A stretch of 64,000 nt of DNA, taken from NCBI GenBank assembly GCA_027621915.1, contig JAQCAD010000011.1, positions 1-64,000 on the forward strand, read 5' to 3'. Positions within the stretch are counted from its first letter, which is position 1. Each line of letters begins with the position of its first letter. The notes under the pieces are model-generated. The model worked only from the letters and a program-made list of their open reading frames with translations, was not told where the DNA came from and ran no database searches. Shown piece after piece: positions 30,046 through 48,116 of this stretch. Both the position numbers and the translations under genes were made by a program. Source of the stretch: Pseudomonadota bacterium (GTDB lineage Bacteria > Pseudomonadota > Gammaproteobacteria > Steroidobacterales > Woeseiaceae).

Positions 30046-30768
30046 TTAGCGAGGGTTTGACGCAAACGACGGTGTGTTGCCCGTGTAAAGTGTCAAACTG
30101 ACACGGCGCTCCAATGCATAGCTGTCGTAGGTCGCGTCGGCGGCAGGTGATTCTCCATGCGCGCTGATCGTAATGTTCGACGCCGGAATGCCGTTCCTGA
30201 TCAGCACGTCACGAACATGTTCGACACGAAGTGCGGACAATTTCTGGTTGTAGGCTTCGTCACCTCTTTCGTCGGCAAAACCGTCCAGACGAACCTGGAC
30301 TTCCGGATTTCCAGAGATGCTGGCGGCAAGCTGGCTGAGCCTGATTCCCGTCGTATCCGCGAGAACATGTTCGTCGGTGCGGAAAAGAAGATCCATCTCG
30401 ATTCCAGCCGCAAGCAACGCGAGCAATTCAGGCTTTGCCATGTCCCGGGCCTGACGCAACTCGACATCGGTCGAACGGAGCTCCGCCCTCAATGACGAGA
30501 TATCACCTTGTAACGTTTCTACCCGTGCTAGCGATCCAGAGAGCGACACTGACAATGAATCCACTTTTTCACTTTTTTTGCCGTATTCGTCACCGAACTT
30601 GCCTCCAAAAGCCGCACCGACTATGACTCCGACGGGGCCGCCGACCGCGCCGCCTATAACGGCCCCAATGCCGACCCCGGTGCTTTCCTCCCTGGACGCA
30701 CGTTCGGCAAACGCAGGGGCCGCAATGACACTGACCAACAATCCAAACAGAATGGTTTTCTTGAACAT
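30046..30768 (-). CDS. OmpA-family protein with glycine-zipper segment (PdsO-like)
   Basis: 240 residues. Signal peptide (cut near APAFA-ER), then a glycine-zipper membrane-like segment GIGAVIGGAVGGPVGVIVG, a coiled coil (about 65-115) and a C-terminal OmpA/MotB peptidoglycan-binding domain (VRLDGFADERGDEAYNQKLS, then ALRVEHVRDVL). This order resembles PdsO proteins of the proteobacterial sortase system, but no sortase or sortase substrate is in the window. The ATG at 30768 has GGAGGAATTGC about 9 bases upstream. It lies downstream of the vWA genes, 127 bases apart, with its own terminator. Confidence 0.87.
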   Translation of the reverse strand: MFKKTILFGLLVSVIAAPAFAERASREESTGVGIGAVIGGAVGGPVGVIVGAAFGGKFGDEYGKKSEKVDSLSVSLSGSLARVETLQGDISSLRAELRSTDVELRQARDMAKPELLALLAAGIEMDLLFRTDEHVLADTTGIRLSQLAASISGNPEVQVRLDGFADERGDEAYNQKLSALRVEHVRDVLIRNGIPASNITISAHGESPAADATYDSYALERRVSLTLYTGNTPSFASNPR

Positions 30769-30894
30769 AGCAATTCCTCCGAAATTCGATAACCCGTGTC
30801 GGGTCGTCTTCGGAATCAATTACACAATCACAAGGGGCTCTGCTCGAGGCAGGAAGGTGTCAGGGTGACGATCAAATCTGGCGAAAAATGGCAG

Positions 30895-31890
30895 TTAGCG
30901 GCTACCCTCGGTTAGCGCCACGAAAGTGCCACCATTGCGGTCGCACATCACTCTCATCAGCCCGGCGAACTTTTGAGAACTCGTCGAAGGGCCCTTTCCC
31001 GTGAATCCCAGTGGAAAGCCAATGGCATGGATGCGCACGCGTCGATCCCCATTCTCGTCTTCGATATTGAGCTGATCGATCTGGTTCAAAACAGATTCCA
31101 TAGAACCGCCCTGAAAATCGTCACCGAAGACATAGACGCTGATTTTCTTGTCCGGCGCCCAGAAAGTTTCAATGGCATAGGCGATTCCGTCAGACGGATT
31201 GCTATCGCTGAAATCCTGCCACTGACGCATTTGATTCGTGATGGCCTGCCTGACCTGTGGCGAATCCTCTATCCATGTTCCGCCGTACTGCTTGAACATA
31301 TAACTACCGTTATCGTTCATAATCTGCAGACCTTTCACCTTCGGGTAGGCGTTCAGGACCTGCGACAATTTTTCCTCAACCCAGGTCCATTTGGACTGCA
31401 TACTGCCGGACGTGTCGATGACGAACAGAATGTATTCGCTATCAACGGGAATGCCACCGACCGCGTCGTCCGGCGCACGGCGAAACGGACCCAGATTCAA
31501 CATCTCCTCCGTGAGTCGCTGACGCGCCGCACGCAGGTCTCCTTCGTCTATATTCAGCATCGGGTCATCCACATTGATCAATGCATACTGACCCTGAACC
31601 TTATCCAACTCCTTTTGCAATGTTGTCATTCGCATTTTGGTTTCCGATGTGTCGAGCTGCACTCTGCCGAGCGCGCGATTCATCACCAGGGTTTCGCCGC
31701 GAATATTAAACAACTCTTCCTGCAGCCTGGCTATCAGCTGTGCAAGATCTTCATTTGTTTTTTCAAGAATTACCGGTTCATAGATCTTGCTGAGCACCAG
31801 CAACAGAATAATTGCGCCAAATCCGCAGCAAATACAGTCAAGAAATGACAGACTGAATACTTCAACATCTGCACGTCGGCGCCTTGCCAT
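30895..31890 (-). CDS. vWA protein with ExbD/TolR-like N-terminal helix (copy 1)
   Basis: 331 residues. A basic start (MARRRR) leads to one membrane helix (about 11-36) with FSLSFLDCICCGFGA; D18 sits where ExbD/TolR proteins have their proton-carrying Asp in PFID. A coiled coil (about 40-105) and a vWA domain follow, with MIDAS motif DTSGS (159-163) and, later, a conserved FGDDF. By positive-inside rule the vWA domain is periplasmic. The start overlaps the stop of the upstream vWA gene by one base (TAATG). Last gene of the nine-gene cluster. Partner and ligand unknown. Confidence 0.85.
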   Translation of the reverse strand: MARRRRADVEVFSLSFLDCICCGFGAIILLLVLSKIYEPVILEKTNEDLAQLIARLQEELFNIRGETLVMNRALGRVQLDTSETKMRMTTLQKELDKVQGQYALINVDDPMLNIDEGDLRAARQRLTEEMLNLGPFRRAPDDAVGGIPVDSEYILFVIDTSGSMQSKWTWVEEKLSQVLNAYPKVKGLQIMNDNGSYMFKQYGGTWIEDSPQVRQAITNQMRQWQDFSDSNPSDGIAYAIETFWAPDKKISVYVFGDDFQGGSMESVLNQIDQLNIEDENGDRRVRIHAIGFPLGFTGKGPSTSSQKFAGLMRVMCDRNGGTFVALTEGSR

Positions 31891-32987
31891 TACGGCCAGT
31901 CCTTACTAACACTCATGAACGACCCTCCGGTCTGATACGCCAAAAGCCAGTATGCGATCGCCGCAGAATAATCTCCTTCCATAGGGTACAGAAGAATATT
32001 GATCGGTACGCCAGGGGGCAGCGTTTCGATCGCTCCGTAGTGATATCGGAGCCGTTCTGCGCCGGTAACCATACCTCGAGCAGCCTGTGGCGAATCCATG
32101 GTCGGCAATCCATCTGCCAGTAAAATGACATTGTCTGGCGGCGGATTCAGACTGGTAATCACTTCATAAGCCGCTTTCATATTGGTACCGTCCTGCGGAA
32201 CTGTTCGGCGCAATAATCGTATCGCTTCATCGACTTGTTTTCCGTCCCCCACCTCAAGCCAGATATTCTCACTACCTTTCAGTACCGGTCGTGCCTCTTT
32301 GTTGAATGTATAAATCTGAAACCGGCTGTCCGGAGGAAATTGCGCAGATAACCAGTCTACGCTTGCGACCGCCTGTCGCCATTTCAAGGATCGCAATTTG
32401 TTAGCATCCGGCAAATTGCGGCGACGCAGAATATTGACAATTTTCCGATCGAGCATGCTGGCAGAACTATCGACGAGAATGAGAATGCGCTGGCCGCCGA
32501 CTTTGAGACCTGTAAGGTATTGCCTGTCTCCATTTCCTACAAAAGATCGCACACGGCTTCCTGCCTCTTCTCGTTCCTGCTCCATGGCCAGAAGTCTCTT
32601 CTTCTCTTCTTCCAGAGATTTGATATCCGACTGCAGTTTTTCTACTCGCTCGATTTTTGCCAAGGTTACTTCGTCATACTGCTCGAGTTCCTTTTTCAAC
32701 TTTTCGATTAGCGCAATGATCTGCGCGATTTGATCTTCGGCGCGGACTTTTTCATCTTCAAGACGATCCATTGTATTCCTGGCCAAAACCAGGTTCTTGC
32801 GTTGCTCCAGGATCTCGAATTCCAGTTTGACCGTTTCGGCTTGCGCTTTTTCGGGCGGAGTCTCTGACTCGTGGACAACCTGAGAATTGATAATCATGAA
32901 GAACAGGATTACGGCGCCGAAGCCACAGCTCATGCAGTCGAGAAACGACATGCTGAACACTTCCATTTTTCGTCGGCGTCTAGCCAA
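31890..32987 (-). CDS. vWA protein with ExbD/TolR-like N-terminal helix (copy 2)
   Basis: 365 residues, paralogous in layout to its downstream neighbour: MARRRR start, membrane helix with FSMSFLDCMSCGFGAVILFF (D17 aligned with the ExbD Asp), a longer coiled coil (about 50-145, heptads of Glu/Lys/Leu) and a vWA domain with MIDAS DSSAS (173-177). The vWA part includes NVILLADGLPTMDS and a C-terminal ILLYPMEGD. It overlaps the Hsp70-like gene by 8 bases. The two proteins could form the dimer that inserts in an ExbB-type ring; that is inference. Confidence 0.85.
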   Translation of the reverse strand: MARRRRKMEVFSMSFLDCMSCGFGAVILFFMIINSQVVHESETPPEKAQAETVKLEFEILEQRKNLVLARNTMDRLEDEKVRAEDQIAQIIALIEKLKKELEQYDEVTLAKIERVEKLQSDIKSLEEEKKRLLAMEQEREEAGSRVRSFVGNGDRQYLTGLKVGGQRILILVDSSASMLDRKIVNILRRRNLPDANKLRSLKWRQAVASVDWLSAQFPPDSRFQIYTFNKEARPVLKGSENIWLEVGDGKQVDEAIRLLRRTVPQDGTNMKAAYEVITSLNPPPDNVILLADGLPTMDSPQAARGMVTGAERLRYHYGAIETLPPGVPINILLYPMEGDYSAAIAYWLLAYQTGGSFMSVSKDWP

Positions 32988-34356
32988 TTTTCTCGTCCGT
33001 CACGATAGTTTTGATTAATTGAAATTCATACCCGGGCGAACCGATTCGCAAGGTGTCGCCCACTTGTAATATTGACGAACCGTCTACCCGGTGACCGTTT
33101 AGAAATGTGCCGTAACGGCTTTGGTCCTCAACCACGCATTGACCATTTTTTCTGGCCAGCGTGCAGTGCCGGCGCGACACGCCCGGCATATCGGTTGCCA
33201 GCGCGACGAATCGATCTTCCACACCTTCCTCTGACCCGATAATCAATGGTGAATTCCCGATTGCATAGGCGTTGTGGCCAAATAACAGGTGCGTGGGCAC
33301 ACCAGCATCGGTACTCCTGACCGTATGCTGAGCGATATCAATCGACGACTGGTCCCAAGGCAATTGACGCAACAGGCTGACACCTTGCGCTTGTGTCGAA
33401 CTGGCGCGGCAACGCGCCAGAGCGCCTCGAGCCGTGGCGCCAGGCTCCAGCACAAACACTTCCCCACCAACCTTAGCTTTCAGAAGGTCGGTCAGGCCCG
33501 GCAGCCGCGCCGTGCGGTCAGTTACCTGGATTGCGGGCAAATCCTCTGCCCGATAAAGCGCGCGTAGCGTGGTTGTAATCCGCTGATAGACAGGTGCGGC
33601 GGCGCCGATTAATGCCAGTGATTCGATAGTCGCCTCGTACGTAACGCCGCGAGACTCAAGCTGCAACTGGACACGACTCTGGCGCGAGGCCTGGTCGACC
33701 CATCCGCCGAGCCGGTCGAGCACCATTTGTTCGGATTCGGCCTGGTGCAACGGATCGAAGCGCGATTGTTGGACGAATACTTCGGCGATTGCTTTGAGCC
33801 ATGCATCGTTAAGCGCGTTAATCCCTGCGTTATTCAATACTTCGGACCGGTCGATCTGTGCCATTCCAGGCTGTGCAAGGCGTGTCAGCATCGCCTGGTG
33901 CAACCCGAGATCAACGTGAACCGGAATTGCACCCGAGTACTCTCGCCGCGTTGCGGCGACCGCCGCGTCAACCATTGCCACAATCGGCAAGTTCAACTCA
34001 CCGGCGATACCGAGAAACAATCCAAGCGTCTCACCGGACATGAATGCCGGCACCGCGACGATCAGCTCACTGACGCCGTTGCCTCCCGCTGCCCAAATTT
34101 GTTCAAGCTGGCGACTTACAAGATCGGCGGCGCTCAAGTGGCTGAACCGGCGGTCCGACAACGGAGTCGTATTCAGTTCGGACCAGAAACTGTGTTGTAC
34201 CCGTCTCGGATCGATTCGGGCATGAGAAAATGCCTCGTTTCCTGTCGCCAGGCTACTGTCCCCAAGATAGGCAAACCCTGGTTCCCGGTAAGCAATGCGC
34301 TCCCCGTCCGAGAGCGTAATGCCGGCGTCATTCAGATGTATCGCCAGGCGACTCAT
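32980..34356 (-). CDS. Hsp70-like (actin-fold) protein with C-terminal FHA domain
   Basis: 458 residues. Residues 1 to about 330 resemble a divergent Hsp70/actin-type ATPase: LAIHLNDAGITLSDG at the start, ELIVAVPAFMSGE, IVAMVDAAVAATRREY and VHVDLGLHQAML in the expected order. The C-terminal 100 residues are an FHA domain (GVSRRHCTL, then VEDQSRYGTFLNGHRV), which binds phosphothreonine. No membrane segment, so cytoplasmic. It would read phosphorylation by the cluster's kinase. The ATG at 34356 is preferred to a TTG at 34380 that overlaps the channel gene. Confidence 0.8.
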   Translation of the reverse strand: MSRLAIHLNDAGITLSDGERIAYREPGFAYLGDSSLATGNEAFSHARIDPRRVQHSFWSELNTTPLSDRRFSHLSAADLVSRQLEQIWAAGGNGVSELIVAVPAFMSGETLGLFLGIAGELNLPIVAMVDAAVAATRREYSGAIPVHVDLGLHQAMLTRLAQPGMAQIDRSEVLNNAGINALNDAWLKAIAEVFVQQSRFDPLHQAESEQMVLDRLGGWVDQASRQSRVQLQLESRGVTYEATIESLALIGAAAPVYQRITTTLRALYRAEDLPAIQVTDRTARLPGLTDLLKAKVGGEVFVLEPGATARGALARCRASSTQAQGVSLLRQLPWDQSSIDIAQHTVRSTDAGVPTHLLFGHNAYAIGNSPLIIGSEEGVEDRFVALATDMPGVSRRHCTLARKNGQCVVEDQSRYGTFLNGHRVDGSSILQVGDTLRIGSPGYEFQLIKTIVTDEKIG

Positions 34357-34376
34357 TTCGTGATTGCCCTGATTTC

Positions 34377-35177
34377 TCAATCGCCCTTCATGTGGCGAAT
34401 CAACTTATCGTCCAGGTAATTCTTGCTGTCGAAAACCAGGCGTTCCTGCAATAGTTGCAGCTGGTAGACCAGGAACATCAGGAAGATGCTGATCAAAAGT
34501 GCGATAAATGTGGAGTTAAATGCCACACCGAGGCTCTGGGTAACGCCGGCAATATCGCCCTGAACGGCTTTGTCCGCCTGGGCAAGCGCTTCGCCAATAC
34601 CCCGCACGGTCCCGATGAACCCGATTGACGGGATCGCCCATGAAATGTACCGGATCATCGACAACTCTGACTCCAGCCGATCCGCTTCAGATTCAAAGAC
34701 GATGTTTGTACTGGTTGAGACGTCCTGAATACTTCGAGTCGAATTGAACCGTCTCAACGCGTTGACCAGTGCACGTGGCAACAACATTCGCCTCCGCTCG
34801 CCCGGAAGCGCCTCCACTTGCCGAGCAAACTCCCGCGTATCCTCGGGTAGTATCCGCATTCCCTCTGCAATCGGGATGAGCTCGATATCGAGCAGATTTC
34901 GCTCCTGGATTATCTCCTTGGCTTTGTAAGTCATGATGGCAAGCGCCCAGAACATCAGGATGAAACAGGATTCCTGCTCAAGGTCTTTTATCAATATCCA
35001 GGTCGACCGATCTCGTATGTAGTCAGGATTTGCTTCCGCTTCGATCGCCTGCTGCGCCAGCACCTCGGTCGCATTCGGGCGAACTATTGATACGTAGAAC
35101 GCATGAACAACGATTATTGCAATGATCAATGCGAATAACTGATAAACAAATTCGACCGGAATATTTTTTTTCTTCAT
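34377..35177 (-). CDS. MotA/TolQ/ExbB-family channel protein
   Basis: 266 residues with membrane helices at about 10-32, 70-84, 176-195 and 218-242. The family signature is SIGFIGTVRGIGEAL (184-198). Helices 3 and 4 with a large cytoplasmic loop before them are the MotA/ExbB layout; four helices are closer to MotA than to three-helix ExbB. These proteins form pentamers around two ExbD/MotB helices and convert ion flow into motion. No ExbD or MotB gene is present; the two vWA proteins downstream supply matching helices. Confidence 0.9.
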   Translation of the reverse strand: MKKKNIPVEFVYQLFALIIAIIVVHAFYVSIVRPNATEVLAQQAIEAEANPDYIRDRSTWILIKDLEQESCFILMFWALAIMTYKAKEIIQERNLLDIELIPIAEGMRILPEDTREFARQVEALPGERRRMLLPRALVNALRRFNSTRSIQDVSTSTNIVFESEADRLESELSMIRYISWAIPSIGFIGTVRGIGEALAQADKAVQGDIAGVTQSLGVAFNSTFIALLISIFLMFLVYQLQLLQERLVFDSKNYLDDKLIRHMKGD

Positions 35178-35229
35178 TTAATGTTTCTCTCGGGCAGTTG
35201 CCAGAAACGACCCTTGCACTACCGCTTCT

Positions 35230-35502
35230 TCAGATGTTCGAAGGAAAAGGAATCGGCTCATCGGCCGGAATTTCTTCGCTCGGCACGAAATCGTCTTCAT
35301 CTTCCTCATAGGTTTGATCGTCCAGTTCATCGTCACCAACATCGTAATTTACATCCTCCGATTGAGTTTCGGTCACGACATCGTCGACAACTTCTTCCGG
35401 CGCGGATGACATTGCAGGTTCATTCCCGGAATTCTCCTCCTGCGACCAGGAGGCTGCTGCAAGGAAAACCAGCATCGTCAGGCTTATCAAATACTTCGAC
35501 AT
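35230..35502 (-). CDS. Small highly acidic exported protein
   Basis: 90 residues: signal peptide (about 1-20, ending AAASWS-QE), then a mature part in which roughly every second residue is Asp or Glu, for example DDELDDQTYEEDEDDF. No Cys, no aromatic core. It lies between the PEGA-FGE gene and the channel gene in the same strand and order. It could bind cations or a basic partner in the periplasm. No family recognised; the translation-initiation region is weak. Confidence 0.6.
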   Translation of the reverse strand: MSKYLISLTMLVFLAAASWSQEENSGNEPAMSSAPEEVVDDVVTETQSEDVNYDVGDDELDDQTYEEDEDDFVPSEEIPADEPIPFPSNI

Positions 35503-35534
35503 GATTGTCTCGCTTCAGGATTACCACATAGTCA

Positions 35535-35555
35535 TTGGACAAAATCGATGTCCAA
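35535..35555 (-). other. Small hairpin between the PEGA-FGE and acidic-protein genes
   Basis: Inverted repeat TTGGACA / TGTCCAA with a 7-base loop, just after the PEGA-FGE stop. No T tract. It could tune expression inside the operon; it could also be chance. Confidence 0.25.
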
Positions 35556-35568
35556 ACATCCGCAGTTT

Positions 35569-38010
35569 TTACTCTACATTCCTCGCAATGCGGAAGCCAA
35601 CATCCGGTCGACCATTGGAGCCGAAATCACGGTATCCGAGCCGAAGCTCCAGTATTCCGGAATGCATCCAGCTGGATCCCCTTATTACCCGATTCGAGCC
35701 CCGCGCCGGTCCGCGCGGGTCACTCACCGGGTCGGACTGGCCAGGTGTCGGCACGGAATAGTAGTCCTGCACCCATTCGGCAACATTGCCGCCGCCATCG
35801 AAAATTCCGAGGGAGTTGGCCGGAAACGTTCCGACGGGAGCGGTGGAGGCATAACCATCGTCCCACCCGGGCAGAATCGACGGAACAAGCGCACTGGCGG
35901 ACTTGCCAGCGTAGTTCCCGCTGTCACGACGCGGGGGCATTCGATCTCCCCATGGGAAGACGGTGGCGTTCGGTCGCGCCTCATACCGAATGGCCCAGAC
36001 CCATTCGGCCTCGGTAGGTAGCCTGTAACCATTCGGCGTCGGACTTACGGGCTGCCATCGCTCAAATATCTTCTCGTACGCTGGCGTCAATCCTTCCTCG
36101 GCACTCAACCAGTTGCAGTAGTCGACCGCGTCCTCCCAGGTAACATTGACGACCGGGTTCATATCACCGGCAAGTGCTACGTGTAGTGCACCGCCCGAAT
36201 CATGTCCTGATCGGAAGCGTCGAAATTCCCGGTTGCTCACTTCCGTGGCGCCGATGTAATAGGGCTTCGTCACGATTACCGGCAGCAGTACCTCGTTTGC
36301 CCTCCTGCCCTGCTCACGCCTTGATGTACCCAACACAAATTTGCCCGCTTCGACGCGTCGTAACTCCTGTCCTTGCGATGTCGTGATCGAGCGAGCCGTA
36401 CTTTGCGCGACAATGTCAGCATCCGAGAGCAGTCGGACCTGGATGGTCTGGGGATAGCCGGGTCGTGGCGTCACGCTCCTGGCAAACGTTGCGTAACCGC
36501 CTTTCTTCACTTCCAGCTGGTGTGGCGCCGACGAGAGCCGGAGGGTCACTGTGCCGCTGCCTCTCGCCTGACCATCAACATAAACCGTCGCATCACCTGG
36601 CAGTACCGCCACGGTCACCTCACCGACTCTCGCCGTCATATCGACAGTTATTTCTTCGGATGCCGCCGCCGCCAGTCGGACCTGCCGGGAGGTCGATCCA
36701 TAGCCTGCCTTGGACAGCCCGATGTCATAGTTGACGTCGGGTGATAATGCGATCGTCACCGGAGACTGGCCGCGGTAACGACCGTTCACGCTGACGTTTG
36801 CACCGCGTGGTATCGATAAAACACGAAGCTGCGCGTTTGCAGGTTCCAGCTCGACCGTTGGCAAAACCTGATCAGTGTTGGCTACCGCCTCCACCGTACC
36901 GTCCCACGCTTTGTAACCGTCCCTGATCAGGCTCAGTGAATGAGACCCTTCCATCAGTTCCAGGCGCATGGGCGTTTCGCCGATCTGTGTCGTACCTTGA
37001 TATACCGCGGCACCTGGCGGTGACGAAGTTACATCCACATTCGCCCATAACGGTACGAGCTGAACATCGAGTTGCTGATGCAATCCCAAACCTGGTACAG
37101 CCAATCGCTGCGAAAACGGCAGGAATCGATCTGCAGTCACCGACACAGAATGTGTACCGGGTTCAAGTTGCAGCGGTCCATATGGCGCGCGCCCGACGCG
37201 CGTATCATCGACGGTCACAAACGCCTCAACCGACGGCTCTGTCGAGATCGTCAACTGACCTGGCAGCTTGCGCATTTCGATGATGACTGTCCTGCTTGGA
37301 GCTTCATTGACCTGCAGACTTTGCGCGACGTCGTAATACCCTTCCTTTTTGACATTAACTGTATAGGTACCTTGCCGCATCAGAATCCGCTCGCCGACTG
37401 GCATCTTGAACCAGCCACCTTTAATGGATATTTCATCCATCCCGGCCGGCTGCACATCGAACTGGATCGACTTCGACGTGAACAGCAACCAGGAAATAAT
37501 TACCAGGACTGCTACGGCTCCACCGACGACTGTTTGCCATTGGAATCGGGACGATTTCGATGCTGTCGGAGCAGTCGCTACGGCACGCCGAAACGCCGTG
37601 GCGACGATGGTCTCCTCTGCCAACGATGCAGATTTGTCGGCCAATTGCGGTGGTTTGGTTACGTAGGCACTGCCCTCGAGTTGAACGCTGAGCCGGAGAA
37701 CCCCGTCAGCCTCGCCAACCAACACACGGGACCCGAAATACTCCAGTTCATCTCCCGCAATCAATTTTCTCGATGCGTTTAGCGCTTCGCCATTTATCTT
37801 CAATGTCCCGGATGCGCCTACCGGTTGAACGAACGGCTCCCCGTCCAGTTCGTCCAGCAATGCGACCACGCTGTTTCCCGGACCCGGCAATCTAATCTCG
37901 CAATTGGTGCCAGTACCCAAACGCAGGGGCAACTTGCCCGCGTCGAGGCGGCGTTCACCGACGCTGTCACGCAGGATGACGGCACTAAATTTCAAATTTG
38001 TTCCTCGCAC
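35569..38010 (-). CDS. FHA-like, transmembrane, PEGA-repeat and FGE-fold protein
   Basis: 813 residues. N-terminal FHA-like domain (about 8-105: LPLRLGTGTNCEIRLPG, then GTLKINGEAL), membrane helix 161-178, then about five PEGA-type beta repeats (180-530; VTVDDTRVGRAPYGPLQL, VSVNGRYRGQSPVTIAL and VYVDGQARGSGTVTL are clear). Residues 548-813 are a formylglycine-generating-enzyme/SUMF1 fold (NPVVNVTWEDAVDYCNWLSA, YRLPTEAEWVWAIRYEA, RGSSWMHSGILELRLGYR). The catalytic Cys pair of true FGE, expected within that last segment, is absent. So it is probably a periplasmic binding module and not an enzyme. It overlaps the kinase gene by 19 bases. Confidence 0.9.
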   Translation of the reverse strand: MRGTNLKFSAVILRDSVGERRLDAGKLPLRLGTGTNCEIRLPGPGNSVVALLDELDGEPFVQPVGASGTLKINGEALNASRKLIAGDELEYFGSRVLVGEADGVLRLSVQLEGSAYVTKPPQLADKSASLAEETIVATAFRRAVATAPTASKSSRFQWQTVVGGAVAVLVIISWLLFTSKSIQFDVQPAGMDEISIKGGWFKMPVGERILMRQGTYTVNVKKEGYYDVAQSLQVNEAPSRTVIIEMRKLPGQLTISTEPSVEAFVTVDDTRVGRAPYGPLQLEPGTHSVSVTADRFLPFSQRLAVPGLGLHQQLDVQLVPLWANVDVTSSPPGAAVYQGTTQIGETPMRLELMEGSHSLSLIRDGYKAWDGTVEAVANTDQVLPTVELEPANAQLRVLSIPRGANVSVNGRYRGQSPVTIALSPDVNYDIGLSKAGYGSTSRQVRLAAAASEEITVDMTARVGEVTVAVLPGDATVYVDGQARGSGTVTLRLSSAPHQLEVKKGGYATFARSVTPRPGYPQTIQVRLLSDADIVAQSTARSITTSQGQELRRVEAGKFVLGTSRREQGRRANEVLLPVIVTKPYYIGATEVSNREFRRFRSGHDSGGALHVALAGDMNPVVNVTWEDAVDYCNWLSAEEGLTPAYEKIFERWQPVSPTPNGYRLPTEAEWVWAIRYEARPNATVFPWGDRMPPRRDSGNYAGKSASALVPSILPGWDDGYASTAPVGTFPANSLGIFDGGGNVAEWVQDYYSVPTPGQSDPVSDPRGPARGSNRVIRGSSWMHSGILELRLGYRDFGSNGRPDVGFRIARNVE

Positions 38011-40373
38011 TGGACGACAATGGGTTGCATTTCGATCTCGGGCGCGACCCGGAATTCAACGCGCACGTCGCGATAACCGGAGCGGATACCAACAACGACG
38101 TAGTTACCGGGTCGCAAATCCAGATCGTAAGTAGAAAACATACCGTATTGACCTACCTTGAATATGGCGACATTCGTCATGTTGTCGGATACGAGTCGAA
38201 CAGGCAACGGAGTCGCCGCCCTTTTGAGCAAACGAGACAGTTCGTTCTTCTGATCCAGAAGTCGCGGACCTATTGGCTGCATACGGGTTATATCCAACAA
38301 GAGCGCGGTCGCGTTATTCATGGTTACCGGGTCACTCAATGTATCCGGGCTATTGATAAACCCGGCGAGGCGAGCGTGCAACGTAGAACGAGAACTCGCC
38401 ATTGCAAGTCCCGCATTCGCGAACTGCAAATCGGAATCGATCTTCAGAATGTCCTGGTAAATCGTCACGGAAGTTTCCCATTGCTCGGCAGCATCGTAAG
38501 ACAATGCCTCATTCTCGAGTCGTCTGATATCGAACAGCCTGACTTCCTGGTCTACCTGGAGCAGGCCATCAGTCGGTTGGCTGGACGATGAGTCGAGAAT
38601 TCTTGCGGCATTGAATGCGGCACGAGCACTGTCAAAGTCAGTCGCCTTCAGCGCCTCGAACCCTTCGGTCATACGTTGCTCGAAAGTCAGCTGCTTAATC
38701 GCCCGATTAACCCGAACCAGGCCAGCCGCCGCCGGCTCCCACTTCGCATCGAGTTCAAGTGCCTTCTCAAAGGCGAGCCTTGCCGCACTGAGTTCCAGGT
38801 CGTTCTCGAAATCAGCTGCCTGATCCATCAATGAAAGTACCGCCTGGAGATTCGTTGCGCGCAAGAGGCCAGCTTCGGCCTCACGATTACCTGGCGTAAT
38901 CGATGTCGCGAGATCAAACAATCTGACAGCCTCTCTGTGATCGTTGGCTTCGAACGCCGCTGTCGCGGCGGCCAGGGTTTCGTCGAAAACGCGATCGATG
39001 CGATCGAAGAACGGCTCAAGCATTTTGCTCGCGTCCCGATACCGACTTCCGGCGAGCTCGTAGTTTCGGCCGAGATAGGCCCGGTCACCCTCTCCATAGA
39101 CATCGACCGCATCAAGGTAATCCTGGCCGCCCCAGCGATCGATCGCCCGAAAACGCAGTCTTTCCAGTTGCGACAGCAGGTCGCCAAGTGCATCGTCGGT
39201 CATCGCTTTTATTCTGACCGCATCTTCCCCTGCAGTGCCGGTGACATTTTCACCCAAAGACGTAGTACCGGCAGGAAATGAACCACCTGGCACTGAAGCG
39301 ACTTCATCGACCGAAGGGTCAACGGCGATGACCGACGCCGAATCATTTGCCGGCGCTGCGGCGCCGGTCACCGGGGACGAATCACCAGCAACAAACTGCG
39401 GAAGCACAAAAACAATGGCTAGAAATAATAAAAGGGCAGTCGCGAGGCCACCGATAATAATCTTGGGCGAGATTCCCGCCGCATCGTGGCGCGCACTTGC
39501 AAGGTCAGCCACGGCCGGGATGCTGCGCTTCAGAACCGGTTCCGTCGCCACAGATTCGACGACTTCATCCTTTGCACCGGCCCCTGTCACGAAGCGAGCA
39601 GGCGCTGGTCCCGGTGCGAACCCTGCGGCAGACAGTCGCGCAGCAACGGTTTCGGCGGCAGGCCGGCGCCGGGCGTCGCTGGCAAGCATGCTGTTGAGCA
39701 AGTCCTTAAGCGCGACTGGTATCACGCCTGTGTCACCTGGCATTGAATCATTACTGGCGCCAGGGGGTAAGCCAGTGAGCAACTCATGAATCAACACGCC
39801 AAGCGCATAAATGTCATCGGCCGCAGCAGCGGGCTCGCCAGCCCGTTGCTGGGGACTGCTGGCGATCTCAGTACCTCCGCCCGAAACCTCAACTTCGCCT
39901 GGCAATGAGGAGACACCGAAATCTACAAGGTAGGGCAGCCCACGACTATCCAGTAAAATATTGGCCGCCTTGATGTCACGATGAACGATACTTTTACCGT
40001 GCGCATAGCGTAATGCGTCCGCGATGAGTCCGATCGGTCGAAGGCACTCCTCAGGACGACTCCGCGTGAGCACACTTAGGTTGGTATTGCCAACATACTG
40101 CAAACTATAAAATGCGCCATCCGGATCATCGTGAAATTCAAACACTCGCACAATGTTGGTGTGCATAAGCCCGCTGCCGATTCTCCACTCACGATTAAGG
40201 AGAGACCTGGCTCCGGGGTCCGACGACGCCTCGCCAGAAAGAACTTTCAATGCAACACTTGACTGCGTCTGGCTATCGGCTGCCAACCAGACTTCCGCCA
40301 TACCGCCTGCACCCAGCTTGCGGGTCAGTGTATATCTGCCCGCGAGGCGCATACCTTCAATGAGGATCCGCAT
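37992..40373 (-). CDS. Transmembrane Ser/Thr protein kinase with periplasmic repeats
   Basis: 793 residues. Hanks-type kinase at 12-265: GAGGMAEV (21-28), K43 in ALKVL, HRDIKAAN (131-138) and DFG (151-153) are present. The activation segment has SPQQ in place of the usual SPEQ. Membrane helix at 314-337, then a helical TPR-like region (about 395-710) and a C-terminal PEGA-like beta segment (LRPGNYVVVGIRSGYRDV). The kinase is cytoplasmic and the repeats periplasmic, so it could relay envelope state to the FHA proteins encoded beside it. Substrates are unproven. Confidence 0.93.
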   Translation of the reverse strand: MRILIEGMRLAGRYTLTRKLGAGGMAEVWLAADSQTQSSVALKVLSGEASSDPGARSLLNREWRIGSGLMHTNIVRVFEFHDDPDGAFYSLQYVGNTNLSVLTRSRPEECLRPIGLIADALRYAHGKSIVHRDIKAANILLDSRGLPYLVDFGVSSLPGEVEVSGGGTEIASSPQQRAGEPAAAADDIYALGVLIHELLTGLPPGASNDSMPGDTGVIPVALKDLLNSMLASDARRRPAAETVAARLSAAGFAPGPAPARFVTGAGAKDEVVESVATEPVLKRSIPAVADLASARHDAAGISPKIIIGGLATALLLFLAIVFVLPQFVAGDSSPVTGAAAPANDSASVIAVDPSVDEVASVPGGSFPAGTTSLGENVTGTAGEDAVRIKAMTDDALGDLLSQLERLRFRAIDRWGGQDYLDAVDVYGEGDRAYLGRNYELAGSRYRDASKMLEPFFDRIDRVFDETLAAATAAFEANDHREAVRLFDLATSITPGNREAEAGLLRATNLQAVLSLMDQAADFENDLELSAARLAFEKALELDAKWEPAAAGLVRVNRAIKQLTFEQRMTEGFEALKATDFDSARAAFNAARILDSSSSQPTDGLLQVDQEVRLFDIRRLENEALSYDAAEQWETSVTIYQDILKIDSDLQFANAGLAMASSRSTLHARLAGFINSPDTLSDPVTMNNATALLLDITRMQPIGPRLLDQKNELSRLLKRAATPLPVRLVSDNMTNVAIFKVGQYGMFSTYDLDLRPGNYVVVGIRSGYRDVRVEFRVAPEIEMQPIVVQCEEQI

Positions 40374-40390
40374 AAAGCGTTAAGCCGAAC

Positions 40391-41632
40391 TTAGCCGGAT
40401 GGTTGTTGTGGCAATGCCGATCGCTCCGGGTTGCCAACCTGAATGCTTTCGGTAAGCCCCGTCTCAGTTTCGTAGATTTCGCGGAGCAGTTTGCGCCAGC
40501 TCTCGTACTGCGCCTCAGCAGTCCCTGTCAGTCTCAATGTTTCGCCCTGTACGTCGACTACCATCGGTGCAGCTTCAGCAACAAATGACTCGGACAACTC
40601 CTTGATTTCTTCGCGATGAACGCTTGCGGAACGATATTGAGAGAAAGAGTTGACAATCGTATTCCAGCCTTTGTTAATCGCAACGGACTGCGCAATTCTG
40701 CCGGGATCATAATACGAGCTGTCGGTATTTACAGTGGCGGAACCAACCACGACCGCCGCGCCAATAAGTGCCTTCCTGATAGCGGCCTGGCGCGACTGAC
40801 GATAAGCGACAGATTGCTCGCGTGTACGTTTGCGCCAACCTTCATATGGCAGCGCGATGCCGTAGTAAAAATTTGCGTAATGTTCGTTCAAAGTGTCCAC
40901 AACCAGTCGATCCCTTTCGCGTATCTGGCGCAATCGATCAACCATTGGGTCGTTTTCGGCTGGAAGCCGCTGAGCAGAGACCCGCCCATCGTCGCCAGAC
41001 TGCAGGTAATCGGTGTAGACGTCAGGGACCATGTCGGCAAAAAATTTCAATTCGGAAACCTGGCGAATTCGAGCGATATCCTTGGGATCAATAGTCAGTG
41101 CGTACGCGTGCAGATCATTCGCGAAGTCATTGAACAGCTTTTGATAGGGGTCCTGCGTGCGATCGCGATAGTCTGCATAAGACGAAATACCGGTCTGCAT
41201 CGAATAGGTCTTCTCGAGCCAGTGGCGTCCGGTCGCGTCCTGCGCGTTCAGCCGCAACACGGCAAACTCGCCATCGGACTCTTCGATAACACCGGTTATC
41301 AGGACGTCGGTAGACACCTGGCTGGTAGGAATAACCCTGACTGCCCCCCAGAACCCCGTGCCCTGAAGCGTCGTTTTGATGTGAAATGGAATGTAGCGAG
41401 CCTCGGCGCTTCGCACTTCAGGATAGATCCGGGTTTTTTCTGCGTCATTGTCTTCGGGAACGCCCGAGTCGAAATTCAATATCCCGACATCGAGTAACAA
41501 GCTTTCTGAAATCTGCAGCGATGCGACATCCAGATTGGACGTTTCTGCATGAATCACTTCGGAGACCGTGCAGCCTGACGCGAGGAACACGCTGATTACA
41601 CCAACAATTAGCAGTCGCAGATACTTTCTCAT
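40391..41632 (-). CDS. Lipoprotein of the kinase-vWA cluster
   Basis: 413 residues from the ATG at 41632, which opens a signal peptide with lipobox LASGC; an upstream TTG at 41671 overlapping the previous stop is the alternative. The first 150 residues (LLLDVGILNFDSGVPEDND, then DVLITGVIEES) recall CsgG/FlgO-type envelope lipoproteins, a low-confidence resemblance. A helical region and a short hydrophobic stretch (KALIGAAVVVGSATV) follow, then a Gln/Pro tail. It lies 17 bases before the kinase gene. Probably an outer-membrane part of the complex. Confidence 0.75.
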   Translation of the reverse strand: MRKYLRLLIVGVISVFLASGCTVSEVIHAETSNLDVASLQISESLLLDVGILNFDSGVPEDNDAEKTRIYPEVRSAEARYIPFHIKTTLQGTGFWGAVRVIPTSQVSTDVLITGVIEESDGEFAVLRLNAQDATGRHWLEKTYSMQTGISSYADYRDRTQDPYQKLFNDFANDLHAYALTIDPKDIARIRQVSELKFFADMVPDVYTDYLQSGDDGRVSAQRLPAENDPMVDRLRQIRERDRLVVDTLNEHYANFYYGIALPYEGWRKRTREQSVAYRQSRQAAIRKALIGAAVVVGSATVNTDSSYYDPGRIAQSVAINKGWNTIVNSFSQYRSASVHREEIKELSESFVAEAAPMVVDVQGETLRLTGTAEAQYESWRKLLREIYETETGLTESIQVGNPERSALPQQPSG

Positions 41633-41667
41633 GTCGTCAGAACTGTTTTTCTTCACCCGCAATTTTA

Positions 41668-42645
41668 TCAAAAATCATTATACATTCGATATTCTTCCCA
41701 AAGCCTCTCTCGCAGCACCGGGTCATCTTCCGACAACGCAGCTTCGCGTAATTGCTTTGCGACGATATCTTCACTGACCAGGTCAGGAATATCGTCCGGC
41801 GTACGTGCCTTGATTTCTTCTTCGCTCATACCGCCAATGGATGCTGCGCGTTCATCCGGCGGACCAGCCAACGTCCCGGCCTCACCGCCACCTGACGCGC
41901 CACCGCCACTCCCGGTACCGCTGCCGCCCTGCGAGCCCAGACCAACGCGACCACTTCCTGCGCCTCCGCTGGCACCACCGCCAAAACCTTCGGTATTTCG
42001 CCCGGCTGTGGAGATTTCGCGCTGTTCATCGGCCAGCACGCCGTCAAAGTCGCCGACCGATTCGTCGAGTGTTTTCTCCAGCCTTGCTTTTCGGTCGGCC
42101 TCACTTTCACCCGGGATCTGACCGACACTGCCATCACAGTTGTCGTCAGGTCCACCCCAGCCACCGGTACCTCCGGCAGCAGGATCACATTCTGTACCCG
42201 TCATGTTCCCGCCGGCACCACCTGCGCCGCCAGCACCGGGAATCGGGCCGCTAACACCGCGGATCTGCCCACCGCCATCGCCGCCGCCTACAGCACCAGA
42301 ACCGCCGCCACCTGCAGCACCACCGGAACTGCCGCCCGATGAGCCACCTGACGACCCGCCTTCTGCGCCGCCTGACGACCCGCCCGGCATGCCACCACCC
42401 GACATACCGCCACCCGACATGCCGCCCGATGAGCCACCGGACGAGCCACCGGACGAGCCACCGGACGAGCCACCGGACGAGCCACCCGAAGAACCGCCCG
42501 AAGAACCGCCGGACGAGCCACCCGAAGAACCGCCGCCAGCTGAATAACCGACCGCGCAACCGCCAAGGATTAGCACCGCCCCGGCAACGATCATTCCGAG
42601 TCGAACTTTCCGCAGAAATGAATTATCTAGGCTGACCAAGTTCAT
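41668..42645 (-). CDS. Gly/Ser-repeat lipoprotein, first gene of the cluster
   Basis: 325 residues. Signal peptide with lipobox LGGC, then an array of nine SSGG units (residues 40-75), further Gly-rich stretches with Met (MSGGGMSGGGMPGG), a Cys-containing segment (GTECDPAAGG, PDDNCDGSVG) and a charged helical C-terminus (EADRKARLEKTLDESVGDFD and VAKQLREAALSEDDPVLRE). Such Gly/Ser spacers let a lipid-anchored domain reach across the envelope. AAGG precedes the ATG. Its stop overlaps the next possible start. Confidence 0.75.
   Translation of the reverse strand: MNLVSLDNSFLRKVRLGMIVAGAVLILGGCAVGYSAGGGSSGGSSGGSSGGSSGGSSGGSSGGSSGGSSGGSSGGMSGGGMSGGGMPGGSSGGAEGGSSGGSSGGSSGGAAGGGGSGAVGGGDGGGQIRGVSGPIPGAGGAGGAGGNMTGTECDPAAGGTGGWGGPDDNCDGSVGQIPGESEADRKARLEKTLDESVGDFDGVLADEQREISTAGRNTEGFGGGASGGAGSGRVGLGSQGGSGTGSGGGASGGGEAGTLAGPPDERAASIGGMSEEEIKARTPDDIPDLVSEDIVAKQLREAALSEDDPVLRERLWEEYRMYNDF
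42421..42528 (-). repeat. 12-base tandem repeat coding SSGG
   Basis: Nine adjacent 12-base units (plus-strand form CCGGACGAGCCA and CCCGAAGAACCG variants) inside the Gly/Ser lipoprotein gene. Unit number is a multiple of three bases, so slippage would change spacer length without a frameshift. Confidence 0.85.
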
Positions 42646-43634: not shown

Positions 43635-43827
43635 CTCCAATTTCTAAAGGCCCCCGATTTGTCCGCTGCTGCGGCCGCTTTCGAGACAGCTTATCCCTGA
43701 TCCTGTAGGCAAACGTTAATGAACGCTTTGATTCTGCCAAGATTTGTCAAGTCCCGGGGTGAGCCGTTGCACTGCCTCTACCATTGGCGGACGATGACAA
43801 AAGACGTGGACGACATTGAATTCAGAC

Positions 43828-44529: not shown

Positions 44530-44540
44530 GTTGATGAACG

Positions 44541-46014: not shown

Positions 46015-46824
46015 CTAATAGGGCTTCCTGAACAAAATGACAGAAAGATCATCCGGCTTGCTCGGCTGGTGTGTGGATTCGACCGTCATCCTCCTTCTCG
46101 CCAGTCCGGTAACAGATTGCAGGGCTTCGGCCAACGGGCCCTTCCTGATTAGCTCGCAGATCTCGTGGTTGTGAAGATTGTCCGTCAGGCCGTCACTTGC
46201 CAGCAGAACGGTATCTCGTGGCTGCAGATGAACTTCGGCTCCCATATCGATTCGCATATCGCTGGTGCCGATCAGGTTCGAAACCAGGTGGCGTTCCTCA
46301 TGATGCAATGCGTCGCGATGATCAAGGAAGCCCGCCTCTACTGCGAATCCGGTCGGCGAGTGCGCCATCGTTTGCGCCCGAACCCGACCACGTTGACCGA
46401 CAATCATGGATTTCGAATCGCCTACCTGGTAACTCCTCGCACTGAGGCCGTCTATCGTCATAACAGTCATCGTCGTCGCTGAGCCGTTACCCATTGCAAG
46501 GACTGCTTTGTTGGCCGCTTCTATTCCGTTCAGGATCGCAGTCCGCAGGAGCATTGTCTCGTGCATCGCCTGGTTCAGGGATGCCTCCAGGGATCGAACA
46601 GCTGTTTGCGACGCTCGTCGGCCGCCGGGCAGTCCACCCGCCCCATCCGCGATAGCGAGTACGACTGCTGCAGGTCCATAGGGTATCGCGGCAACACAAT
46701 CTTCGTTTTCGGTCGTCTTATCCGGCGACGGAGCCGTATACGCGACCAGCGATCCTCCCCCGATTTTCGCATCAAGTCGATGCGACTCAGTTGCGCCGTC
46801 AAGCACAATGGTGTCGTCGATCAT
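46015..46824 (-). CDS. PP2C-family protein phosphatase
   Basis: 269 residues of PPM fold: NEDCVAAIPYG, LAIADGAGGLPGGRRAS (metal-binding Asp), ARSYQVGDSKSMIV and LLASDGLTDNLHNHEI carry the family's metal and phosphate ligands. Dephosphorylates Ser/Thr. It overlaps the zinc-ribbon kinase gene by 4 bases, a coupled kinase-phosphatase pair. It may also reverse phosphorylation by the kinase at 37992; that is inference. Confidence 0.93.
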   Translation of the reverse strand: MIDDTIVLDGATESHRLDAKIGGGSLVAYTAPSPDKTTENEDCVAAIPYGPAAVVLAIADGAGGLPGGRRASQTAVRSLEASLNQAMHETMLLRTAILNGIEAANKAVLAMGNGSATTMTVMTIDGLSARSYQVGDSKSMIVGQRGRVRAQTMAHSPTGFAVEAGFLDHRDALHHEERHLVSNLIGTSDMRIDMGAEVHLQPRDTVLLASDGLTDNLHNHEICELIRKGPLAEALQSVTGLARRRMTVESTHQPSKPDDLSVILFRKPY

Positions 46825-48116
46825 TTTTCTACCGGACTACTGCACCAGGCACAGTAGTTCCAGTATTCGTTGACTATTCCCCAGCGGCACGACGGGCACT
46901 TGGCTTTGCTGTGTTCAATCTTCCAGGGCTTCTTGACCTTCACGCGACACCACGGGCAATAACGCATGAAGGGCATTAACGGTTCGCGGCAGCTGTGATT
47001 GGCGCATTTACTCGTATAACGCTTATCGGTAAATCGCCGATTTGTCTCGACTTCGAATCCAGCGCCATAGCACCACGCACAGTAGTGCCAGTCTGTTTTA
47101 ACACCTCGCTCGCAGCGAGGGCACACCGCCGGCATGTTTGTGTCCGTTCCTCGTGACGGATGCTCGACACCACACCAGGGGCAGCCTTGCATACTCTCGG
47201 AAATCGGGCCGTCACACTTACGACACGTCTGGTCCGTTCCGAGTTCGTGCTTGAACTGCTTTTGAAACTCTTTCCATTGTAGCTTCTGCCAGGACGCACT
47301 ATAGCTCGCCGTTTTTCTCTTTTTCCTGGTGGACCTTCGGCTACTCTTTTTTTCGGAGCGTTTTTGCACTTTGCAAAAGGCGGCATGCATTTCAATAGCA
47401 TTCCGATAGCGGTCTGCGGGATCGAGTGCAATCGCCTTCTTGAGAACTTCAGCAATTTCTCGCCCGAAACGCGAGCACAGTTGCTCGTAACCAACCATGG
47501 GCCATTTGTATGGCCACTCCGGTAACTTGCCTGAGAACAGCCGGTACAGCACAAGGCCAATAGAAAACACGTCCGACTGAAACTTTGGCCGACCCATCGC
47601 CTGCTCGGGGGATATGTAGTCGATCGTGCCGGAACCTGACGCTTTCAGCGTCCTTAAACTGATCTTCGCAAAGCCGAAATCCGCCAGTTTAAGTCGATTC
47701 CCCGGGAACAGGATAAAGTTCTCCGGCTTGATATCACAATGGATAATTTTTCTTTCGTGCGCATGAGCTAGCGCAGCCAGTGCCTGGTCGGCAATACTTA
47801 ACGAGAGTGCCGCTGACATCCGCCGCACGATGCGATCGGCAAGGGACTCTGTCCCCAGTTCCATCGCGATCACAAATTTGTCGTCTATGAAGCTGGCGTC
47901 CAGCACTGCCAGTATATTGACATGATTCAGTCGGGTCGCTATCTGAACTTCACGCAGAAAATCCTCGTGCGAAACTTTATGGTCTGCTTTCGGAATTTTC
48001 AGCGCGACGTGTGTCTTATGAATTGTATCTGCTGCCCTGTATACGTCCGCCAACGGTCCTGAAGCTATGCGACTGAGAATGCGATATTTTCCGAGTTTCT
48101 GCCGGGTCCTGATCAA
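46821..48116 (-). CDS. Ser/Thr protein kinase with four C-terminal zinc ribbons
   Basis: 431 residues. Kinase domain 10-260: K40 in VALKIPK, catalytic HCDIKPEN (126-133), DFG (146-148), ISPEQ (158-162). The Gly-rich loop ASGPLADV is degenerate. A basic linker (RRSTRKKRKT) leads to about 140 residues with four zinc-ribbon-like modules, each ending in CxWC: CPWCG, CAWCY, CPWCR and CAWCS. No membrane helix. The only nearby start is a TTG at 48116. Kinase plus PP2C recalls TerY-P modules, but no TerY gene is adjacent. Confidence 0.92.
   Translation of the reverse strand: MIRTRQKLGKYRILSRIASGPLADVYRAADTIHKTHVALKIPKADHKVSHEDFLREVQIATRLNHVNILAVLDASFIDDKFVIAMELGTESLADRIVRRMSAALSLSIADQALAALAHAHERKIIHCDIKPENFILFPGNRLKLADFGFAKISLRTLKASGSGTIDYISPEQAMGRPKFQSDVFSIGLVLYRLFSGKLPEWPYKWPMVGYEQLCSRFGREIAEVLKKAIALDPADRYRNAIEMHAAFCKVQKRSEKKSSRRSTRKKRKTASYSASWQKLQWKEFQKQFKHELGTDQTCRKCDGPISESMQGCPWCGVEHPSRGTDTNMPAVCPRCERGVKTDWHYCAWCYGAGFEVETNRRFTDKRYTSKCANHSCREPLMPFMRYCPWCRVKVKKPWKIEHSKAKCPSCRWGIVNEYWNYCAWCSSPVEK

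Follow-up and report, generated by a model that had tools for sequence, protein, structure and literature searches.

The window, a 64,000-nucleotide stretch of DNA from a Woeseiaceae gammaproteobacterium, carries nine open reading frames on the minus strand (30895-42645), and the nine genes listed in a preliminary description of this DNA are all present as described. In transcription order they encode two lipoproteins (lipo1 and lipo2), a transmembrane kinase, a PEGA-FGE protein, a small acidic exported peptide, a MotA-type channel subunit (MotA), an Hsp70-FHA protein and two vWA proteins (vWA1 and vWA2), separated by gaps of -4, 17, -19, 66, 52, -4, -8 and -1 bp. A gene-order comparison bore out the proposal that these genes form a single conserved cluster: the order is kept, and of 66 distinct loci whose flanks are complete, 54 carry the whole nine-gene set, which exceeds chance. 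The cluster is kept in many marine and sediment bacteria. A MotA homologue was found in 34 of 37 Woeseiaceae genomes, the three genomes without it being 77, 67 and 65% complete. Across a sample of 370 genomes from the class, 29 contained MotA at E < 1e-50 and 341 had no match; a vWA relative was present in all 29 MotA-bearing genomes (31 genomes in total) and lipo2 in 25 of them (26 in total). A separate search for MotA reported 572 relatives, of which 80 were listed. One genome (G246) had MotA on a separate contig from the vWA pair.

The channel subunit is of the MotA/TolQ/ExbB type (34377..35177, minus strand; Pfam MotA_ExbB, 5.5e-14). Its T190 and T223, which by comparison with TolQ/ExbB presumably face the pore, are invariant in 61 of 61 aligned rows, and its profile had no match among solved structures at E 0.001. 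The proteins vWA1 (31890..32987, minus strand) and vWA2 (30895..31890, minus strand) each consist of a transmembrane helix, a coiled coil and a vWA domain with a MIDAS. The helix contains Asp17 in vWA1 (codon 32937..32939, minus strand, within the motif SFLDCMSCGFGA) and Asp18 in vWA2 (codon 31837..31839, minus strand, within SFLDCICCGFGA). This Asp is found in 53 of 54 vWA1 rows, the sole exception being a sequence which begins downstream of the position, and in 52 of 52 vWA2 rows; the DxSxS motif is invariant in all 54 and all 52 rows. The Pfam vWA matches are weak (1.6e-5 and 0.0081, both below the curated cut-off) and the vWA2 profile matched solved structures only through coiled coils. 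In a tree containing 34 rows of each, vWA1 and vWA2 were reciprocally monophyletic (support 99 and 97), which identifies them at the sequence level as ancient paralogues, with one of each per cluster. They occur together in 104 of 109 loci; the five loci without an adjoining vWA2 belong to one lineage, and the single genome checked has vWA2 elsewhere. ExbD/TolR matches in the host genome lie on contigs C11, C31, C89 and C91, with none on the cluster contig C74.

As both vWA proteins have an ExbD/TolR-like N-terminal helix with a conserved Asp, these helices very probably serve as the axle in a 5:2 motor of the MotA type. The preliminary description had proposed an ion-driven motor with vWA proteins in the place of a ZorB/TolR-type subunit; both claims are supported, and the conserved transmembrane Asp strengthens the second. 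From these features we infer a 5:2 stoichiometry, a vWA heterodimer and ion flow. Williams-Jones et al. 2025 (PMC12204202) have already predicted a motor core of this kind in print; in the parts of the paper available, their TPH-vWA motors have a TolQ-like gene, TM-vWA genes that mostly come in pairs, no tolR/exbD gene, and a conserved helix Asp and pore Thr. The same traits were found here: the tolQ-like gene adjoins TM-vWA genes with no tolR/exbD at the locus, the vWA pair is heterologous, and the helix Asp and pentamer Thr are conserved. This was the only report of a motor-vWA core returned by a literature search which had preprints and most subscription journals outside its scope. In the available parts of PMC12204202 the kinase, PEGA and forkhead domains and phosphatase are not named; to what those parts cover we add the lipoproteins, the Hsp70-FHA protein, the acidic peptide and the kinase-FHA co-loss, so that the remaining machine and its switch appear to be new.

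Zorya ZorAB also has a MotA-type channel with a B subunit whose periplasmic domain is altered, and the Zorya-like motor suggested in the preliminary description stands insofar as vWA takes the place of ZorB; the associated role in phage defence is unsupported. It is extremely improbable that the cluster is a Zorya-type anti-phage system. The MotA-type subunit is a distant match to the PADLOC ZorA model (17 bits, E 5.7e-4) and scored only 14.9 of 500 bits with the NCBIfam ZorA model, while the kinase part matches the PADLOC PD-T4-6 models at 154.8 bits, a match which may be general to Ser/Thr kinases. However, a PADLOC search of ten proteins found no ZorC, ZorD or ZorE and matched ZorB only in the OmpA-family neighbour (16.9 bits), vWA replaces the OmpA-type domain with no peptidoglycan-binding domain identified by Pfam in the vWA proteins, and the near-universal presence of MotA, a core gene of the family, is unlike the distribution of patchy defence islands.

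Tol-Pal resembles the cluster in its TolQ-type pentamer, in the likeness of a lipo2 domain to the N-terminal domain of TolB, and in the presence of an OmpA-family glycine-zipper protein (30046..30819, minus strand; PF00691, 3.7e-13), a possible Pal-like anchor whose gene starts 75 bp after vWA2 and adjoins the cluster in 26 of 66 loci. Unlike Tol-Pal, the locus is without TolR, TolA, the TolB propeller and Pal. The channel subunit scored 31.2 of 221 bits with the TolQ model, the contig is without ExbD/TolR, and the TolQ/ExbD/OmpA group of the host lies apart, on contig C91; we therefore do not assign the cluster to Tol-Pal.

The putative periplasmic partners of the motor include lipo1 (41668..42645, minus strand), a lipoprotein with a long Ser/Gly-rich linker and a conserved, helix-like C-terminal tail (DDIVARQLREAA..E.DP.LRE.LWEEYR); the lipoprotein Cys30 and the tail are conserved at 80% or more in 89 sequences. 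The second lipoprotein, lipo2 (40391..41671, minus strand), gave nothing above cut-off in Pfam, NCBIfam or PADLOC. Its predicted structure (AF2 pLDDT 84.8) has a PelC/CsgG/TolB-N/FlgT fold at about residues 44-200, followed by a long helical hairpin (residues 242-313 and 323-366). Residues 44-200 aligned to FlgT, PelC, CsgG and TolB with VIA-align Z scores of 10.6 to 8, and families absent from these fold listings may also be relatives; the best Foldseek match was TolB at E 6.9e-3, with none under 0.001. On this structural model lipo2 has a PelC/CsgG/TolB-N-type lipoprotein domain. The small acidic exported peptide (35230..35502, minus strand) has a signal-peptide-like start, a variable acidic linker and the C-terminal tail F-x-P-[ST]-E-x-[IV]-x-x-D-x-x-[IV]-x-F-P-x-[DN]-I-COOH (35233..35289, minus strand), in which, among 107 sequences, F at -19 is found in 104, P at -17 in 102, P at -4 in 107 and I at -1 in 105. 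In 62 of 66 loci the PEGA and MotA genes flank a homologue of the peptide.

PelC and CsgG form outer-membrane rings, and these proteins could be read as a secretion or assembly device in which the acidic peptide or lipo1 is driven by the motor through such a ring made of lipo2. The similarity of lipo2 to PelC, CsgG and the FlgT/LPHT ring (Z 10.6 to 9) and the fixed tail of the peptide fit this idea, which we nevertheless regard as very unlikely: no pore-forming part was identified, the PelC-type fold also occurs in the non-channel lipoproteins PqiC and TraT, and the peptide is small and acidic.

The remaining three proteins combine signalling and periplasmic domains. The Ser/Thr kinase (37992..40373, minus strand; PF00069, 4.3e-29) contains HRD and DFG, a transmembrane segment at residues 305-323 and a periplasmic TPR and PEGA-like part. 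The next protein (35569..38010, minus strand), described earlier as FHA-TM-PEGA-FGE, does have the transmembrane segment (residues 160-178), PEGA repeats (Pfam 2.2e-46, over five stretches) and an FGE fold (3.1e-39), but its N-terminal domain had no Pfam FHA match and no S-R-x-H motif in the consensus and, on its sequence, is FHA-like only. Catalytic FGE needs an active-site Cys pair; among 108 sequences the FGE domain has no Cys in 18, one in 88 and two in 2, so the pair is missing in nearly all (106 of 108) and we rejected a catalytic role. The last of the three (32980..34380, minus strand) has a C-terminal FHA domain (Pfam, 2.7e-13) and, according to its predicted structure (pLDDT 90.3), an Hsp70 nucleotide-binding-domain fold, which aligned to DnaK with a Z score of 29.8 over 323 residues at 3.2 A. 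The earlier label Hsp70-FHA is thus right as to fold and FHA; Pfam found no Hsp70 match, and the phosphate loops are degenerate, the glycine-rich loops being replaced by D-A-G-I and H-L-D-L-x-L-H in the consensus of 86 rows. GGT or GTT occurred in the loop stretches examined in 1 of the 86 rows, and an active Hsp70 ATPase was rejected.

An FGE fold or an FHA-TM protein beside a 5:2 motor is also found in the gliding systems, GldK/PorK with GldLM of Bacteroidota and Agl-Glt of Myxococcus. The FGE domain resembles PorK/GldK (NCBIfam 90.9 bits, below the cut-off of 350; PDB PorK, 3e-10), and no flagellin was found in the host genome. The cluster shares with Agl-Glt, as far as the available part of PMC3169522 goes, a TolQ-type motor, an FHA-TM-periplasmic protein (GltG) and the TPR proteins of Glt. 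We consider it unlikely that the motor serves behaviour at the cell surface (gliding, adhesion or surface-adhesin movement) in the manner of Agl-Glt or GldLM-GldK, because the AglQ/AglS-type ExbD subunits which are part of the Agl motor are missing at the locus, the nine genes encode no beta-barrel or large adhesin, and reduced genomes of 1.3-2.0 Mb retain the cluster. No GldM/AglS-type B subunit was found, GldM having been looked for in the NCBIfam search only, and we did not class the cluster with either gliding motor.

PpkA of the type VI secretion system (T6SS) carries vWA and TagR carries the FGE fold. The T6SS threonine-phosphorylation pathway (TagQRST-PpkA-Fha-PppA) shares with the cluster a transmembrane kinase, an FHA reader, a PP2C phosphatase and an outer-membrane lipoprotein, according to the available part of PMC10482370. 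In contrast to that pathway, the kinase and FHA of the cluster appear wired to a motor, and T6SS wiring was rejected for the host, in whose genome (95.14% complete) no VipB match was found while an E. coli control matched.

We found that the kinase and the FHA domain are lost together. Of 89 scored loci, 47 have both, none has the kinase without FHA, 3 have FHA without the kinase and 39 have neither (Pagel test: LR 47.3, p 1.3e-9, with about nine changes of each on the tree; the fit used a FastTree tree with a midpoint root, and one of the rates reached its limit). A first pass with regular expressions over 93 loci, one of them set aside, had given 38, 3, 8 and 43 in the same order, and alignment-column scoring gave 46, 0, 4 and 39. 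Four of the 93 loci (L084, L119, L135 and L156) were dropped because the kinase gene was cut or unscored. After the exceptions had been viewed, L032 and L131 were re-scored as kinase-positive, since there a gene of its own immediately upstream encodes the kinase domain, and L128 became kinase-negative when only the cluster's own kinase was counted, which gives the final figures. FHA in the kinase-negative L163, from the cultured marine bacterium Pseudomaricurvus alcaniphilus, is borderline (4 of 6 residues), and L055, L057, L059, L154 and L166 are short homologues without a kinase domain or aligned catalytic residues, scored as kinase-negative. The PEGA protein keeps its FHA-like N-terminal domain in 47 of 47 kinase-positive loci and lacks it in 25 of 38 kinase-negative loci.

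Because an active cluster kinase is absent from 42 of 89 loci, FHA being gone in 39 of these 42, and the Hsp70-FHA protein is absent from 7 of 66, the switch is not general. Phospho-regulation, as proposed in the preliminary description, is therefore retained as a control layer which lies outside the universal core. We rejected a universal phospho-switch, some homologues of the kinase gene having no kinase domain; a kinase from elsewhere in the genome may act where the cluster kinase is absent. Loci without kinase and FHA retain the motor, the vWA pair and the lipoproteins, in order, so that signalling to the kinase cannot be the sole purpose of these parts. This makes it distinctly unlikely that the cluster is a mechanosensor in which ion flow tensions the vWA heads against the outer membrane and the kinase reads changes in tension, despite the large periplasmic TPR/PEGA part of the kinase and the fact that kinase and FHA stay together.

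In our reading the cluster encodes an envelope motor from which the phospho-switch can be detached. We give an even chance to its being an inner-membrane 5:2 rotary motor, driven by the PMF (or sodium), which works mechanically on the outer membrane. Five MotA-type subunits would surround an axle made of the vWA1 and vWA2 transmembrane helices, and ion flow past the paired aspartates would turn the axle and the two periplasmic vWA heads. Through their metal-ion sites the heads may catch lipo1, a flexible tether, lipo2, which would bring its TolB-N/PelC-type domain and long helical arm, and the acidic tail peptide. Placed around the motor, the PEGA-FGE and TPR-PEGA membrane proteins could act as its sensing arms. 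In lineages that have the kinase, including the host, this enzyme would read the periplasmic state and phosphorylate a threonine close to the motor; the FHA domain of the inert Hsp70-like scaffold would bind the phosphothreonine and change motor activity, and PP2C would reset the switch. The output would be upkeep of outer-membrane integrity, or coupling of the outer membrane to the wall, beside Tol-Pal; since most of the class had no MotA match at the threshold used, any such role would be lineage-bound. More tentatively, and at somewhat less than even chance, the cluster could represent a third general route beside Ton and Tol by which the inner membrane powers the outer membrane, with a rotary motor on an obligate heterodimeric vWA axle whose two heads grip outer-membrane lipoproteins and an ancestral phospho-layer (kinase, dead Hsp70 with its FHA, and PP2C) lost in one piece on several occasions.

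Nutrient uptake, envelope constriction, gliding, secretion, defence and swimming all run on known 5:2 motors. If our reading is true, a family common in the sea and in sediments has one more among its core genes, which turns on an axle of two unlike subunits and comes with its own phospho-switch. From sequence alone, the joint loss of kinase and FHA points out which protein reads the switch and opens it to testing, and lineages with and without the switch offer a natural comparison of the same motor gated and ungated. A putative class of function is also given to five genes which lacked one (lipo1, lipo2, the acidic peptide, vWA1 and vWA2).

An associated pair comprising a second Ser/Thr kinase with a double zinc ribbon and a PP2C phosphatase (46015..48116, minus strand) sits beyond a Cpx-like operon, and in 19 of 66 loci a PP2C gene shares the strand of the cluster and lies no more than 10.5 kb away. 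Distant relatives have a MotA-like protein paired with FHA and PP2C genes and, on long enough contigs, also with vWA and kinase genes. In each of two genomes of reduced size (1.3 Mb, 81% complete, and 1.6 Mb, 84% complete) the only two MotA/ExbB proteins were that of the cluster and one of TolQ size.

All nine genes of the cluster were confirmed to run in one direction on the minus strand, from 42645 down to 30895, with neighbours overlapping or separated by short gaps as the preliminary description had it. Their order is lipo1, lipo2 (both lipoproteins), TM kinase, FHA-like-TM-PEGA-FGE protein, acidic exported peptide, MotA-type channel, Hsp70-like-FHA protein, vWA1 and vWA2. The source genome is a draft of 3.56 Mb which is 95% complete, and among the best 80 of 572 relatives of its cluster MotA the nearest named ones are Woeseiaceae records, with 95 to 89% identity. 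MotA was present in 53 of 60 relatives searched: 34/37 genomes of the family, the three without it being 77, 67 and 65% complete, and 19/23 other genomes of the order. A class sample of 370 genomes gave MotA matches in 39 at E 1e-8, 29 of these with E below 1e-50.

Gene content was compared in 140 loci with MotA (130 with distinct MotA), consisting of 60 loci no longer than 20 kb and 80 named loci, the latter being the best 80 of 572 relatives and therefore biased towards close kin. Full flanks were available for 70 loci, 66 of which also had a strong MotA. Co-occurrence of the nine genes in relatives had been proposed as a check on the cluster, and the full set was found together in 54 of these 66 loci. 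Individually, lipo1 was found in 63, lipo2 in 63, PEGA-FGE in 65, Hsp70-FHA in 59, vWA1 in 65 and vWA2 in 63; the kinase-gene count (65) takes in homologues without a kinase domain, and that of the acidic peptide (62), which was sought with a profile from closer relatives, depends on both position and score. The flanking OmpA and PP2C genes were found in 26 and 19 of the 66 loci, respectively.

In the window, the OmpA-family gene (30046-30819) comes next after vWA2; its product has a glycine-zipper and scored 117.6 bits against the PdsO (sortase-associated) model, under the cut-off of 152.2. Upstream of the cluster, a second Ser/Thr kinase gene with a double zinc ribbon overlaps a PP2C gene (46015-48116), and a pair of this kind lies immediately upstream of lipo1 in several relatives (e.g. 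loci L107 and L116) and downstream of vWA2 in others (L089, L126 and L128). Between the pair and the cluster, a CpxP/LTXXQ-like gene is divergent from a CpxR/CpxA-like pair (43101-45905), and Cpx-like genes occupy the same place in several family members (L071, L072, L074, L075 and L078). The window also holds a ParA/CbiA-type ATPase ORF (27814-28578; Pfam 5.7e-12 for its first part) with an in-frame stop near 28258, which is either natural or a sequence error.

The association also holds beyond gene order. MotA (as a single sequence), lipo2 and vWA2 (both as alignments) were each searched over 370 class genomes with the same handles, full identity of the samples being assumed and genomes without a match being mostly unlisted. 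Proteins of vWA2 type were found in 31 genomes, among which fall all 29 with strong MotA; the other two are G400 (partial vWA2) and G088 (weak). Matches to lipo2 came from 26 genomes, including 25 of the 29 (all except G134, G246, G332 and G335), and in G246 MotA is located apart from the vWA pair. The sole genome with lipo2 and without MotA, G224, retains a remnant (L171) in which the lipo2 and kinase genes are both broken; the rest of the cluster, including any vWA2 match, was not found there, as if the cluster had been lost as a unit. Two genomes (G043 and G056; L037, L038 and L039) carry both the usual cluster and a paralogous one, in which no Hsp70-FHA or acidic peptide was found.

The text of Williams-Jones et al. 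(PMC12204202) predicts a motor-vWA core whose function it describes as unknown. In its running text, "kinase", "forkhead", "phosphatase" and "PEGA" do not occur, and "FHA" appears a single time, referring to FhaC. The motor described there has a transpore helix and a conserved Thr ring, with which the cluster proteins agree. Both vWA1 and vWA2 begin with a basic stretch followed by a helix S-F-L-D-x-x-x-C-G-F-G-A, whose Asp is present in 52/52 vWA2 rows and 53/54 vWA1 rows (the 54th starts downstream of it in the ORF call used), and T190 and T223 of MotA are invariant in 61 rows. The metal-site motif DxSxS is invariant in vWA1 and vWA2 alike. No ExbD/TolR match was found on the contig of the cluster. 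Other contigs of the genome give five such matches, four of them above cut-off, and the genome has five MotA/ExbB proteins, cluster MotA included. Because the Asp/Thr pattern fits the published motor and the contig gave no ExbD/TolR match, vWA1 and vWA2 very probably serve as B subunits. In a tree with 34 sequences of each and two distant proteins, vWA1 separates cleanly from vWA2 (support 99/97). Of 109 loci with at least 1.5 kb downstream, 104 have vWA2 together with vWA1. The other five (L033, L138, L141, L143 and L145) resemble one lineage, and in G047, the sole genome of it checked, vWA2 is on another contig. This retention of one vWA1 and one vWA2 even if unlinked argues for an axle that would be a vWA1-vWA2 heterodimer.

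The predicted model of lipo2 (pLDDT 84.8) shares a fold over residues 44-200 with FlgT (Z 10.6), PelC (10.4), CsgG (9.5) and the TolB N-terminal domain (9.3), and a helical hairpin comes after it. With Foldseek alone, the top match was TolB at E 6.9e-3, and none fell under 0.001. Many proteins with this fold form rings in the outer membrane or periplasm, so that lipo2 would by analogy be the natural outer partner. The acidic peptide has an almost fixed tail (P at -4 in 107/107, I at -1 in 105/107), which looks like a docking peptide needing a free C-terminus.

In its family the cluster is a core gene set, kept also in seven reduced genomes of 1.3-2.0 Mb (G015, G025, G029, G031, G033, G041 and G048). 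Two of these, G031 (81% complete) and G029 (84%), show only two MotA/ExbB proteins, cluster MotA and one of TolQ size; the remaining five show four. This retention points indirectly to upkeep rather than a luxury such as defence. On that basis we favour a cluster that would work on the outer membrane, the main rival being that it serves surface behaviour instead.

In many lineages the kinase gene retains its TM and periplasmic part while the kinase domain is missing or degenerate; in L032, L131, L132 and L136 the kinase domain is its own gene immediately upstream of a TM-TPR/PEGA gene, which is a fission of the kinase. After re-scoring, 89 loci were counted: FHA was intact in 47 and absent in 0 of those with an active cluster kinase, and present in 3 and absent in 39 of those without. 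As 32 of the 47 belong to one clade, the independent evidence is about nine changes of each character on the tree rather than 89 loci; a dependent model was preferred over an independent one (LR 47.3, p 1.3e-9). In the PEGA protein, the FHA-like N-terminus was likewise kept in 47/47 loci with active kinase and missing in 25/38 without. The plain reading is that FHA would read what the kinase writes, and that the cytoplasmic layer is detachable from an envelope machine which is retained. The Hsp70-like protein has the Hsp70 nucleotide-binding-domain fold in its predicted structure (Z 29.8) and, its phosphate loops being degenerate, is probably a scaffold carrying FHA. Distant MotA-like relatives (L061-L065) have FHA, PP2C and, on long enough contigs, vWA and kinase genes, which suggests an old origin of phospho-control, followed by later loss. 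In that family the MotA-like protein adjoins a stand-alone FHA protein and/or PP2C, and the longer loci (L061 and L062) encode trypsin-like/FHA proteins, a kinase and a single vWA with helix S-A-L-D-L-F-A-S-A-L-G-A.

The cluster also occurs in one genus outside the class but within the phylum (7 genomes), where no Hsp70-FHA was found in the two genomes examined. Records labelled Acidobacteriota (Thermoanaerobaculia, Sulfomarinibacter) carry it as well (L135, L144, L154 and L166). For both vWA1 and vWA2, L135, L144 and L166 form one clade within the gammaproteobacterial tree, a placement that would fit transfer of the cluster. These records are metagenome bins and may be misbinned, though all three agree.
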